64,000 bases of DNA from Pseudomonas fluorescens (GTDB lineage: Bacteria; Pseudomonadota; Gammaproteobacteria; Pseudomonadales; Pseudomonadaceae). Shown one piece after another: positions 2,680 to 63,882 of the stretch. The stretch covers positions 2,046,001 through 2,110,000 of the forward strand of contig LR782234.1 of NCBI GenBank assembly GCA_902825215.1, in the 5' to 3' direction. Each line of letters opens with the position of its first letter. The first letter of the stretch is position 1. The notes below the pieces were generated by a model, which saw nothing but the letters and a program-made list of their open reading frames with translations, had not been told where the DNA came from and did no database searches. Position numbers and translations under genes: made by a program.

Positions 2680-2735
2680 AAAAACGCCGCTACCGGATTC
2701 GCGATTGGGCGAATGGGTGAGCGACGTCTTTGTCG
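2680..2735 (-). promoter_or_regulatory. Candidate NasT (ANTAR) antitermination leader with terminator
   Basis: In the nasA leader RNA (minus strand) one hairpin, CGAC/GTCG at 2735-2722, has the six-base loop AAAGAC, with A at loop position 1 and G at 4 as in ANTAR target hairpins. A second hairpin, ATTCGC/GCGAAT at 2714-2697, has the six-base loop CCAATC, which lacks that A1/G4 signature. The segment CGTCGCT (2726-2720) can alternatively pair with AGCGGCG (2691-2685), enclosing hairpin 2 and followed by TTTTTG. The GTCG strand is shared, so hairpin 1 and the terminator exclude each other. This fits NasT-type antitermination (NasR/NasT family knowledge). The pairing was read by eye. Confidence 0.65.
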
Positions 2736-2776
2736 TGGGTGGGGCAACCGCCGTTGGTTACCTGTGCGTTTTACAT

Positions 2777-2792
2777 AGCGAGATTTGTGCCA
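2777..2792 (-). promoter_or_regulatory. Sigma-54 promoter of nasA
   Basis: The minus strand reads TGGCACAAATCTCGCT, with the -24 GG and -12 GC separated by exactly 10 nt as required for RpoN. The predicted start is near 2765, giving a leader of about 180 nt before the nasA ATG. This fits NtrC-activated nitrate assimilation. I see no clear NtrC enhancer pair between this promoter and the IS element. Confidence 0.75.
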
Positions 2793-7819: not shown

Positions 7820-7857
7820 AGGGTGTTTCCCTCACTTGTTGACTGTAGTGTCGCGTT

Positions 7858-7950
7858 GACCTCAATTGAGGTCTGGCAGAAAAAACCTGCCATGGTGCGG
7901 CTCGCTGCCGGCGTGGCGAGCCAAGGTGTTGACGCCGTTGCGACGTCAAC
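7858..7950 (-). ncRNA. Structured rmf leader (consistent with the rmf RNA motif)
   Basis: Read on the minus strand, four successive perfect hairpins precede rmf. They are GTTGACG/CGTCAAC (7950-7928), GGCTCGC/GCGAGCC (7922-7899), TGGCAG/CTGCCA with a T-rich loop (7892-7874), and the 16-bp palindrome GACCTCAATTGAGGTC (7873-7858). A conserved rmf RNA motif upstream of Pseudomonas rmf genes is known from comparative genomics. I assign it by position and hairpin density, not by covariance-model scoring. Confidence 0.62.
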
Positions 7951-8245
7951 CTGTATGCAGTTCTAACCAATGAGTCACAGCGAGGGAATGACCGTTTTGT
8001 CATAAGCACGTAACGGAAAGGATGCTATGGCAATAAGTAACCGCGTATTAATTGAACGATTCTTGAGCAAACCCCGGTATGATCGGCGCCGCGCTGGATG
8101 ATGGGGTTAATTCTTTAGTGAGAATGACCCACGTTTGCGCTCAGGTAATAAGCGACGAAGGGTCACTTCGAGACATTTTGTTGCTTCAACTTTTTTATCT
8201 GTCCCGGCATCTAAGCTCTTTTAACCCGAGCAGCGGGGATGGAAC

Positions 8246-34987: not shown

Positions 34988-35100
34988 GGTGACCCCATCG
35001 GTCCCCCCGCAACGATTACCCGTGAACCTGGTCAGAGCCGGAAGGCAGCAGCCACAGCGGGAACATTGTGTGCCGGGGTGTGGCTGGTGGGGTCGCCACC
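34988..35100 (+). ncRNA. ffs: 4.5S signal recognition particle RNA
   Basis: The bacterial small SRP RNA scaffolds Ffh and FtsY for co-translational membrane targeting. The conserved apical domain GGTCAGAGCCGGAAGGCAGC is present, with the GGAAGG tetraloop context. The ends pair as GGTGACCCC with GGGGTCGCCACC, and the internal arms CCCGCAACG and GTGTGCCGGGG-type text follow the E. coli layout. The length is about 113 nt. Confidence 0.93.
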
Positions 35101-61348: not shown

Positions 61349-61468
61349 ACTCGAGCTAACGCTCATTGTTGAGTGGTGCGGCTTCGCCGCGGGCAGCTGC
61401 GCTGCTTTGCTTTTGTGAGCGAGCTTGCTCGCGAAGGCGGTCTGACAGCCGACCTGTTTCTTACGGAT

Positions 61469-62028
61469 GTACCCAATCCAACTGTAGGAGTGAGCCTGCT
61501 CGCGATGACGCCCTGACAACCGACGATTATCTACCGGCTGGACTCAATCCCTGTGGGAGCTGGCTTGCCAGCGATGGCGACCTTCGAGCCGACCAATCCC
61601 CCACTGATGTACCCAATCCAACTGTAGGAGTGAGCCTGCTCGCGATGACGCCCTGACAACCGACGATTATCTACCGGCTGGACTCAATCCCTGTGGGAGC
61701 TGGCTTGCCAGCGATGGCGACCTTCGAGCCGACCAATCCCCCACTGATGTACCCAATCCAACTGTAGGAGTGAGCCTGCTCGCGATGACGCCCTGACAAC
61801 CGACGATTATCTACCGGCTGGACTCAATCCCTGTGGGAGCTGGCTTGCCAGCGATGGCGACCTCCGAGCCGACCAATCCCCCACTGATGTACCCAATCCA
61901 ATTGTAGGAGTGAGCCTGCTCGCGATGACGCCCTGACAACCGACGATTATCTACCGGCTGGACTCAATCCCTGTGGGAGCTGGCTTTCCAGCGATGGCGA
62001 CCTCCGAGCCGACCAATCCCCCACTGAT
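61469..62028. repeat. Four tandem 140-bp repeats, each with two REP types
   Basis: The unit starts GTACCCAATCCAACTGTAGG and recurs at 61469, 61609, 61749 and 61889, with a fifth divergent start at 62029. Each unit holds one type A-like REP (GTAGGAGTGAGCCTGCTCGC) and one type B REP (GTGGGAGCTGGCTTGCCAGC). Copies 1 and 2 are identical by eye. Copies 3 and 4 carry CCTCCGAG for CCTTCGAG, and copy 4 also has ATTGTAGG and GGCTTTCC variants. A further type A unit at about 61415-61442 lies to the left, and one at 62044-62066 to the right. Confidence 0.92.
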
Positions 62029-62160
62029 GTACCCGGTCCAAATGTGGGAGCGAGCCTGCTCGCGAAAGCTCTCGTTCAAACGACATCAAAACCAACCAGC
62101 CTGTCAGAGGTGATCCCAGCACTTAAACATCATCGGATGGCCGCGTTTAAACTACACGAG

Positions 62161-62450
62161 CCGTTACTCCATAACGGCTACAACTCCTTGCGCCATTACC
62201 TACGCCTACGCCAGAATCCGCCGGCTTACACGGCTATGGGTCGGGCTATATCGTTTGTCGGTCACTGCAAATCAGTGATCGGGTTTGGTAGCCCGTCTGT
62301 AATAGCCGTGTGGCGACACCTGATTGAAGCTTCTCTATCGAGGCTTGATTTATGGTGGTCATGCGTGGGGCTCACTTGTGAGCGCCGGGTTCCTATTGCA
62401 GCCGGTCTACCAACCCGCGTATGGCCACCACCCACTCGTTTGGTAGCGAG
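62161..62450 (+). ncRNA. Candidate structured RNA leader upstream of the DUF6124-like gene
   Basis: Several helices are visible: CCGTTA/TAACGG (62161-62177), TCACTG/CAGTGA (62262-62278), and CGGG/CCCG with loop TTTGGTAG (62280-62295). Next come AAGCTTC/GAGGCTT (62327-62346) and a 12-bp stem GGTGGTCATGCG with CGTATGGCCACC (62354-62429, two G-T pairs). That stem encloses GCTCA/TGAGC and CGGGTT/AACCCG. Last is CTCG/CGAG with the same loop TTTGGTAG (62435-62450). CTACCAA at 62407-62413 complements both loops. The frame is open through it, but the DUF6124-like ATG has its own ribosome site. Confidence 0.6.
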
Positions 62451-62487
62451 CGTGATGGCTTCCCAAACTGCGATAGGAGTTTCATCC

Positions 62488-62853
62488 ATGTTCAAAATCA
62501 CACCCAACCCACCCGTCACCGACCAAATCCCCCACGACCCAGCGCTGACCCCGCAAAAGGTCAAAGAAGCCACCGACCGCGCGCTCGATTACTATCTCAA
62601 GCCCGAAGACCTGGCGGCCGCGCCAACCTCGCCAAAAAATCGCCCGGTCTATCTCGTCGACCCGACGCTGGATGACGAAACCCTGCTGGTGGAGGCGAGC
62701 GCGTCGCTTTCATATGCCCATGCCATGGCCGGCAACATCGCCCATTCCATTGGCGGCCCGGAGCGTAAACCGCTGCTGGCGCTGCAACAGGTGATCATGC
62801 TGAACGAGCTGTTGGTCAATCGACTGTTGGATAAGCTGAAGTTGCCTCAATAA
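62488..62853 (+). CDS. DUF6124-like small protein
   Basis: This 121-residue protein has a Pro-rich N-terminus (MFKITPNPPVTDQIPHDPAL), the segment KVKEATDRALDYYL, then VDPTLDDETLLVEASASLSYAHAMAGNIAH and a Leu-rich C-terminal helix. It fits the small DUF6124/DUF3077-like proteins abundant in fluorescent pseudomonads (from memory, unverified). The function is unknown. The ATG at 62488 is preceded by ATAGGAG. The same frame stays open for 148 codons upstream through the structured leader, but that translation is Arg/Ser/Trp-rich and unlike a domain. Confidence 0.7.
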   Translation: MFKITPNPPVTDQIPHDPALTPQKVKEATDRALDYYLKPEDLAAAPTSPKNRPVYLVDPTLDDETLLVEASASLSYAHAMAGNIAHSIGGPERKPLLALQQVIMLNELLVNRLLDKLKLPQ

Positions 62854-63145: not shown

Positions 63146-63565
63146 TCACAAATCATCCAGATCGGGAAAGATAATCCTGCCTAATGCCCAGGGTTCAACG
63201 ATTTCACAATGCACGGTGCGCAGAAATGACCCCCACTCGCTTCGGTTATGGGCATCCGGGCCGGTGATTGTCAGTAGCAAGTACTCATCCCGAAAAGCGT
63301 CATAGGCATAAATCAGCCAAAAGTCATTGTCAGTATCATTAACCAATGCTGTCCGGTAATACTGGCGATTTATTTTTGCCCATCGAGTCTGCAGTGACTT
63401 TGTACTGGCAAGGTGGATGTGGTGCATGTCGCTCAGATCGAGTCGTTCATCCCGCCCGAAAATGGCAGGTAATTCATCGCAAATTTTGTAGTTGTAGAAG
63501 TGTGCAGCGAAGTTTTGCCAGTTATTGATTCGTTCAAAAAGTGCAGAAATTTTGATGGCTGGCAT
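63146..63565 (-). CDS. YafO family type II toxin (mRNA interferase)
   Basis: This 139-residue protein resembles E. coli YafO, a ribosome-dependent mRNA interferase. Shared text includes an N-terminal helix, then LPAIFGRDERLD (E. coli LPDIFGRDALYD), MHHIHLAS (VAHIHLAN), a Trp/Tyr-rich strand region (WLIYAYDAF versus HLVYCQGAF) and LLLTITGPDAHNR. Length matches the family. It starts 6 nt after the small upstream gene, the usual antitoxin-toxin order. GC content is lower than in the core genome, which supports acquisition. Confidence 0.8.
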   Translation of the reverse strand: MPAIKISALFERINNWQNFAAHFYNYKICDELPAIFGRDERLDLSDMHHIHLASTKSLQTRWAKINRQYYRTALVNDTDNDFWLIYAYDAFRDEYLLLTITGPDAHNRSEWGSFLRTVHCEIVEPWALGRIIFPDLDDL

Positions 63566-63571
63566 CCAGGC

Positions 63572-63718
63572 CTACTTTGTAATAGGTAGCCTGCCAGTGA
63601 TCACAAATTTATCGAACACTTTCTGCCCATCACGCGCGGCTTGCCGAACATCAAGGAATGTCAGTTCTTCACGGACTGCCTTTTTGCTGGGTTTGTCGGT
63701 TTTTCGAGTGGTGGCCAT
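63572..63718 (-). CDS. Putative antitoxin partner of the YafO-like toxin
   Basis: This 48-residue basic protein (MATTRKTDKPSKKAVREELTF begins it) ends DGQKVFDKFVITGRLPITK. The start at 63718 is decided by GGAGG six nt upstream; an earlier in-frame ATG at 63742 is possible. It is much shorter than YafN and lacks its recognisable Phd/YefM DNA-binding part. It may be a minimal antitoxin with only the toxin-binding segment. The assignment rests on size, order and 6-nt spacing to the toxin. Confidence 0.65.
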   Translation of the reverse strand: MATTRKTDKPSKKAVREELTFLDVRQAARDGQKVFDKFVITGRLPITK

Positions 63719-63882
63719 CGGAGCCTCCGAAGGATGTGTATTCATGCTGACCAGCTTATGTGAATAAGTTTTGACCGGCAAACGATAGAACCTTGCCTCA
63801 ACGAGCACCAGTCGGCGCATTCTGGGCGAGTTGTAGGCAGTGTCGGCATTGCTTGAGTGAGATCGTCGTCGGCAGAGAAGGC

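Follow-up and report, generated by a model that had tools for sequence, protein, structure and literature searches.

What kind of element precedes the small DUF6124 gene that lies towards the end of the window (by which we mean the whole 64,000-nucleotide stretch of Pseudomonas fluorescens DNA analysed here), and what does it do to the gene that it adjoins? The first-pass annotation had seen in positions 62161-62490 a single large structured leader, in which two hairpins with different stems present one common loop (CGGG-TTTGGTAG-CCCG and CTCG-TTTGGTAG-CGAG) and could compete for a single anti-loop, CTACCAA, in the manner of a switch acting in cis. Both hairpins are present in the sequence (Table 1), and a structured element beyond chance was borne out: the plus strand folded better than 100 of 100 shuffled sequences (z -5.66), the minus strand also folding better than its shuffles, more weakly (z -3.0). 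The fold, however, is one already described in phages P1 and P7, that of their C4 antisense RNA. A cmscan search of the window against Rfam matched the central domain to C4 (RF01695) over the full length of the model, positions 1-87 (78.8 bits, E 9.3e-14), and 62248-62299 to the c4-a1b1 element (RF03163; 55.2 bits, E 3.3e-11). Both matches exceed the Rfam cut-offs of 45 bits for C4 and 46.7 bits for c4-a1b1, and their order, c4-a1b1 and then C4, is the one expected for a C4 system. The structured stretch is a C4 antisense RNA with an upstream a1b1 site, and it most likely works as other C4 antisense RNAs do, not as a novel switch.

Table 1. Features of the C4 module, in positions of the window.
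Feature	Position	Strand	Basis or remark
Whole module, cassette of about 700 bp	62143-62853	+	86% copy at another site
Putative sigma70-type promoter: TTACAC 62226-62231, 17 nt, TATCGT 62249-62254	62226-62254	+	Candidate picked by eye
5' hairpin of the transcript, TCACTG / CAGTGA	62262-62278	+	Sequence; recurring words among 85 loci
a1 hairpin, loop TTTGGTAG 62284-62291, upstream site for a'	62280-62295	+	RF03163; perfect 7-nt match
b1 site, CTGTAATAG, complementary to b'	62297-62305	+	9 pairs including G-U
C4 antisense RNA (RF01695)	62348-62435	+	cmscan; stems read from sequence
C4 closing stem P1	62354-62369 / 62414-62429	+	16 pairs, three G-U
C4 stem P2	62370-62383	+	Read from sequence
C4 stem P3, CCGG	62385-62388 / 62402-62405	+	Read from sequence
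b' segment of C4, GGGTTCCTATTGCAG, P3 loop and two stem bases	62387-62401	+	15-pair match to b2
a' segment of C4, CTACCAA (the earlier anti-loop)	62407-62413	+	Read from sequence
a2 hairpin, loop TTTGGTAG 62439-62446, downstream target of a'	62435-62450	+	Perfect 7-nt match
b2 target site, CTGCGATAGGAGTTT	62468-62482	+	15 pairs with b', including G-U
DUF6124 gene, 121 aa, ATG start	62488-62853	+	PF19619, 55.8 bits (cut-off 27), E 4.4e-15

In terms of this model CTACCAA is the a' segment of C4. It is complementary to both twin loops, as had been claimed, over seven of the eight loop bases, and it does lie in a three-way junction, one closed by 16 pairs, three of them G-U, where a stem of 12 bp had been described. 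What had been overlooked is a second arm: b' is complementary to both b1 and b2. Pairing at the window locus thus comprises 7 pairs for a'/a1, 7 for a'/a2, 15 for b'/b2 and 9 for b'/b1. Two sites lie before the next gene and one of them covers its Shine-Dalgarno sequence, since b2 contains AGGAG at 62475-62479, ending eight bases before the ATG; the ribosome site is part of the element, as had been suspected, and the upstream a1b1 site is likewise in place. C4 RNAs are characteristically released by RNase P at a length of about 77 nt; the GGT at the base of P1 (62354) is consistent with the GGW motif described in PMC5320573. The downstream gene is indeed DUF6124-like, matching PF19619.

The reading that we favour, with a probability of roughly 0.88, is that of a self-silencing C4 antisense module that regulates the adjacent DUF6124 gene. 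A single transcript from a promoter near 62226-62254 would carry a1-b1, C4, a2-b2 and the DUF6124 gene; C4 would fold into its three-stem form and then be excised as an RNA of about 80 nucleotides, here with GGT at 62354, and once released would act both in trans and in cis. The a' segment would grip a2 while the b' loop covered the Shine-Dalgarno sequence at b2, and because ribosome start would then be prevented, the gene would be silent for as long as C4 is produced. Titrating C4, and so tuning it, or else helping to release it is the probable role of the upstream a1-b1 copy, and competition between a1b1 and a2b2 for C4 is a possible added layer. For the window locus we infer C4 processing, translational block and a default-off state by analogy with phages P1 and P7. 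In those phages RNase P processes the C4 antisense RNA by a cut at the P1 base, and reads of the C4-like RNAs of Acinetobacter baumannii start at the GG at that base, where the GGW motif lies (both from the available part of PMC5320573). Likeness to P1/P7 C4 extends to the three-stem fold, the a' and b' segments, the upstream a1b1 and downstream a2b2 sites, the position of b2 on the ribosome site and the adjacent target. The differences are that the guarded gene is a chromosomal DUF6124 gene in the window and icd/ant in P1, that Pseudomonas has many copies per genome with different codes, and that C1-type control is known for P1/P7.

We consider it very improbable that the loops compete for the anti-loop within one leader, with no separate RNA and with a ligand or condition deciding the outcome. 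All of the sites do lie on one stretch, pairing of a' with a1 precludes its pairing with a2, and a1/b1 has been kept as well as a2/b2; yet the central domain matches end to end the model of an RNA known as released and trans-acting, and loop competition alone leaves the b'/b2 arm that covers the Shine-Dalgarno sequence unexplained. The probability that the leader belongs to a longer, conserved protein, read in the frame that is open from 62044 to 62853 and continues into the gene, is negligible, and as a main account this is refuted. The window copy does have the frame open, and among the 108 loci of the DUF6124/DUF3077 cluster 31 keep it open through C4; but in 77 of these loci, and in 11 of 14 in the window genome, a stop lies in it between C4 and the gene, and the variation of the leader preserves base pairs.

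The extent of the leader also needs revision, as the part from 62161 to about 62260 probably consists of promoter DNA signals, with the start of the RNA expected near 62261. This placement was read by eye from 177 C4 loci whose upstream sequences had been aligned at a1; in them a hairpin lies directly upstream of a1 and TTGC-like and TA-rich hexamers can be seen 5' of that hairpin. In 85 non-redundant loci the recurring words of the first hairpin arm were GTCGCTG (35) and GTCACTG (10). A simple promoter scan gave no consensus match at the window locus.

Comparison with relatives bears directly on the pairing, for which the first-pass annotation had proposed selection on structure. Four homologous modules share 76-86% DNA identity with the window module over the matched part. 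Across all five (the window module and the four relatives) a', a1 and a2 are unchanged, while b', b1 and b2 have all changed yet still pair in three of the four relatives, the fourth having a wholly identical code. Because b', b1 and b2 change together and keep pairing, selection on base pairs is supported. Between encoded amino acids and base pairs, which had been set against each other at the outset, these concerted changes and the closed leader frame both point to base pairs. Relatives of the DUF6124 protein, up to 93% identical, occur at 78 named loci, all of them in Pseudomonas; parsing succeeded for 74 of these and gave 25 b' strings, and a1 and a2 both reach 7 nt in 73 of the 74.

The correspondence between C4 and its flanking sites was counted over a larger set of 190 C4 loci, comprising 164 from seven genomes and the 26 single best from other genomes, from which two fragmentary loci were dropped to leave 188 for the pairing counts; 4090 same-genome pairs served as a non-cognate control. 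Complementarity of at least 7 nt was found between a' and a2 at 170 of 188 cognate loci against 214 of 4090 non-cognate pairs, and between a' and a1 at 176 of 188 against 253 of 4090, and b'/b2 pairing of at least 8 at 146 of 188 against 680 of 4090. Against the reading that we favour, the 7-nt a'/a2 match is missing in 18 of the 188 loci and b'/b2 falls below 8 in 42. The 170 exact a'/a2 matches include 40 distinct a' seven-mers. Exact complementary runs separate cognate from non-cognate sites better than ranking by RNAduplex energy, which is noisy on such broad segments. By summed duplex energy the cognate target was strictly best for 113 of 162 C4s, so part of the repertoire could be open to cross-talk or may have decayed. 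The only other module of the window genome with the window's a code (L010) has mismatched b codes, with runs of 5 and 6. Beyond the genus, where cognate sites alone were counted, a'/a2 complementarity of at least 7 nt was present in 14 of 15 uncut loci at class level (18 in total, three cut by contig ends; the miss is L222) and in 16 of 17 uncut loci at order level (21 in total, four cut).

Selection of the codes within a genome for orthogonality was not supported, as avoidance of cross-talk was not detectable. Identical b' segments occurred in 7 of 2045 within-genome pairs and 11 of 10996 between-genome pairs, and cross-matches of a plus b (b run of at least 9) in 10 of 4090 within and 77 of 21992 between genomes, neither of which supports avoidance; simple divergence may thus account for the differences among codes. 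A few loci depart from the common pattern. The leaders of L009 and L012 have a well-paired b2 with no clear AGGAG (TGGAATTAGC and GGTTTCGAGCA), and the ribosome site may have drifted there along with the code. At L016, L018, L152, L162, L165 and L195 C4 is kept although the guarded gene seems to be absent, truncated or frame-displaced, which gives the impression of an RNA that has outlived its gene. Tandem pairs of C4, 64-80 bases apart, occur at L185 (G061:C1:1136623-1136875) and L191 (G061:C1:868644-868881), where the next genes are apparently broken or unlike the usual families.

The closest copy of the window module lies in another genome at another chromosomal site, where it adjoins what by eye is a ribB-like gene. 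It carries the same a and b codes and is 86% identical over 62143-62838, to which homology is confined. Because a copy so similar and with the same code is found at another site, with homology limited to the module, the module behaves as a compact cassette. Two less similar relatives (L211 and L212) have their upstream neighbourhood in common with the window module. Directly 5' of the window module, 61463-62065 holds a 140-base unit repeated head to tail about four times; the copies match one another at 95-98% and contain the REP-like GAGCCTGCTCGCGA. Just downstream, on the minus strand at 63146-63820, lies a YafO-type toxin gene (PF13957, E 4e-9), preceded by an ORF of 82 aa without a Pfam match that could be a candidate antitoxin.

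How widely such modules occur was assessed at the levels of genome, genus, order and class. The window genome has 18 C4 matches, 17 of them over the cut-off; 5 of its 17 DUF6124 genes lack a C4 of their own among those 18 matches, a further count against the favoured reading, though one of the five takes second place after a gene led by C4 and another follows what by eye is a degenerate C4. Counting the window genome, C4 is present in 184 of 199 sampled Pseudomonas genomes, with at least 10 matches in 118 and at least 20 in 68, counts that are lower bounds since at most 20 candidates were scored per genome. Fuller scoring of six chosen genomes gave 35, 24, 20, 21, 36 and 10 matches, a few of them under the cut-off, and 36 is the maximum among the seven fuller counts, window genome included. 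Again with the window genome included, C4 occurs in 15 of 115 genomes at order level and 18 of 274 at class level. DUF6124 was absent from the 251 other genomes of the class that were searched, its single occurrence in 252 being the window genome itself. On these counts C4 is broad, and its large DUF6124-linked expansion is, on this sample, a genus trait. The first-pass annotation had held that similar text recurs ahead of other small DUF genes in fluorescent pseudomonads, and recurrence of the element upstream of DUF6124/DUF3077 genes is supported by the survey of C4 loci.

Turning to what C4 guards, when the first ORFs after C4 were clustered by sequence, this ORF fell into the DUF6124/DUF3077 cluster at 108 of the 190 loci and into a third family at 33; 13 loci had a related short ORF (about 50 residues), 10 a Bro-N-type gene and 2 another short ORF, with 20 singletons and 4 loci that gave none. 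DUF6124 was matched in 61 of 62 aligned members of the DUF6124/DUF3077 cluster, a divergent member (L068) giving no family match when scanned singly, and profile comparison links DUF6124 with DUF3077 (hhalign 94.9%). The third family is not linked to the DUF6124 and DUF3077 profiles by hhalign (1.7% and 3.4%), and none of its 32 scanned members matches Pfam. The DUF6124 protein is under purifying selection, with a median dN/dS of 0.13 (35 relatives of equal length, 46 considered), and its predicted fold is an N-terminal helix followed by a two-helix hairpin (pLDDT 83.5), for which the PDB gave no match at E <= 0.001. The best row of a second structural look was the ferritin-like EncB (Z 9.7, rmsd 1.4, 61 residues), in a range common for helical hairpins. 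The third-family model (pLDDT 90.2) also had no PDB match at E <= 0.001 and reached at most Z 7.0 in the second look (rmsd 2.9, 66 residues). None of the domain and family libraries scanned assigns a function to DUF6124, to DUF3077 or to the third family, and the PADLOC models of 2023, a date that bounds this negative, gave no family for one representative of each.

The P1 operon consists of c4, icd and ant (available part of PMC8198154), and one may tentatively regard the guarded proteins as domesticated regulators of the antirepressor type, descended from such a P1-like c4-icd-ant arrangement and tuning regulators of the host or of prophages. C4 precedes the Bro-N cluster at 10 of the 190 loci, in eight genomes (L037, L038, L040, L043, L044, L046, L047, L050 and two further loci), and the one Bro-N protein scanned matches the anti-repressor Ant families of PHROGs; the copy at L046 looks broken. 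Genes that by eye resemble phage antirepressors also follow C4 in the class- and order-level groups. At 22 of 39 loci inspected among the 190, the ORF that comes first is short and the gene after it begins 4 or 8 bases inside it, reminiscent of the c4-icd-ant order, and the matches of one DUF3077 protein are phage families without an assigned function. DUF6124 itself, however, has no Bro-N, KilA-N or DNA-binding match in the family scans, and the failure of its model to match the PDB at that threshold likewise tells against this origin. At the window locus the layout of P1-type immI, with C4, a short coupled ORF and an antirepressor, was not found, DUF6124 following directly after C4.

Mobile elements offer a further view of these genes. 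Plasmid records held no DUF6124 match and phage records a single one (37.9% identity), located close to the end of a record 22.7 kb long. DUF6124 was found on 16 predicted viral contigs (L317-L332), all 16 with a C4 over the cut-off just before the gene; a second C4 over the cut-off lies upstream of that one in L328, L329 and L331. In 10 of the 11 viral contigs displayed, out of the 16, the module stands ahead of an ORF that by eye is a tape measure gene, and in several of those displayed it is also ahead of a tail assembly chaperone, a tail-gene context that Pfam and PHROGs bear out for L317, the one contig so checked. The cargo beside the module is variable and partly defence-like: it comprises, among others, a PLD-like protein, a RelA/SpoT-domain protein and an AAA_13 protein with a match to PADLOC PDC-S06. 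Of the 10 cargo proteins scanned, 5 gave no match in PADLOC. The position in viral contigs, together with the antisense control of a small gene, suggests a possible role in defence or addiction.

Type I toxin-antitoxin systems use an antisense RNA to keep the small gene next to it from being translated, and the same is proposed for the C4 module; C4 differs in that it is transcribed off its target's own strand and works by way of two short segments. It is nevertheless rather unlikely, in our estimation, that the guarded genes belong to a module of this kind or of the abortive-infection kind, in which C4 would be the antidote and the DUF6124 protein would harm or arrest the cell upon C4 loss, and we are as reserved about the suggestion that this loss would come, for example, on phage infection or with loss of the cassette. 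The RNA has complementarity to the beginning of the small gene beside it, copies are many, with differing codes and cassette behaviour, the viral-contig modules sit before tail genes and beside the cargo described above, and a YafO-like gene adjoins the window module. Set against this, none of the three representatives has a PADLOC match, nor does half of the cargo scanned, and DUF6124, with 121 residues and a predicted helical hairpin, is unlike typical type I toxins, which are short and hydrophobic. It is more of a long shot that Pseudomonas chromosomes and prophages hold a repertoire of up to about 36 antisense-locked effectors, mostly with their own two-part code, in small mobile cassettes acting as tripwires or addiction modules, such that a phage or other event which removes or titrates one C4 would cause that DUF6124/DUF3077 protein to be made and to hit the invader or the cell.

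Returning to the self-silencing C4 module that we favour, the RNA family itself is already known. The c4-a1b1 element was listed in Weinberg 2010 (PMC2864571). The upstream loop and stem of the window module match that Rfam family (RF03163); no gene association is given in the available part of the PMC2864571 account, and here b1 changes with b' and b2. The closest parallel in copy number is the Group 1 C4-like sRNAs of A. baumannii AB5075, with 21 copies in one chromosome, variable a' and evidence of processing at the GG motif, for which a variety of target RNAs has been suggested for the a' variants (available part of PMC5320573); in Pseudomonas, by comparison, each C4 is matched to its flanking sites and both a and b vary. 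No report tying C4 to DUF6124/DUF3077 was found in the open-access literature searched, and the available portions of PMC2864571 and PMC8198154 draw no link between C4 and these genes. DUF6124 had no mention in the open-access literature searched, and the sole mention found of DUF3077 is in a mutation list of evolved P. putida, in the portion of that source available. On the literature searched, the new elements are the scale, the module-matched two-part codes and the link to DUF6124/DUF3077. If our reading holds, a class of uncharacterised Pseudomonas proteins gains a regulator and a default state (off), and the modules make the large unknown gene family DUF6124/DUF3077 experimentally testable. 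For the A. baumannii C4 set, the neighbouring genes are the first place to seek targets, because in the other genera sampled C4 usually matches a site before its own downstream gene. The remaining Rfam matches in the window are rmf at 7838-7970 (-), narK at 2721-2791 (-) and the bacterial small SRP RNA at 34996-35092 (+).
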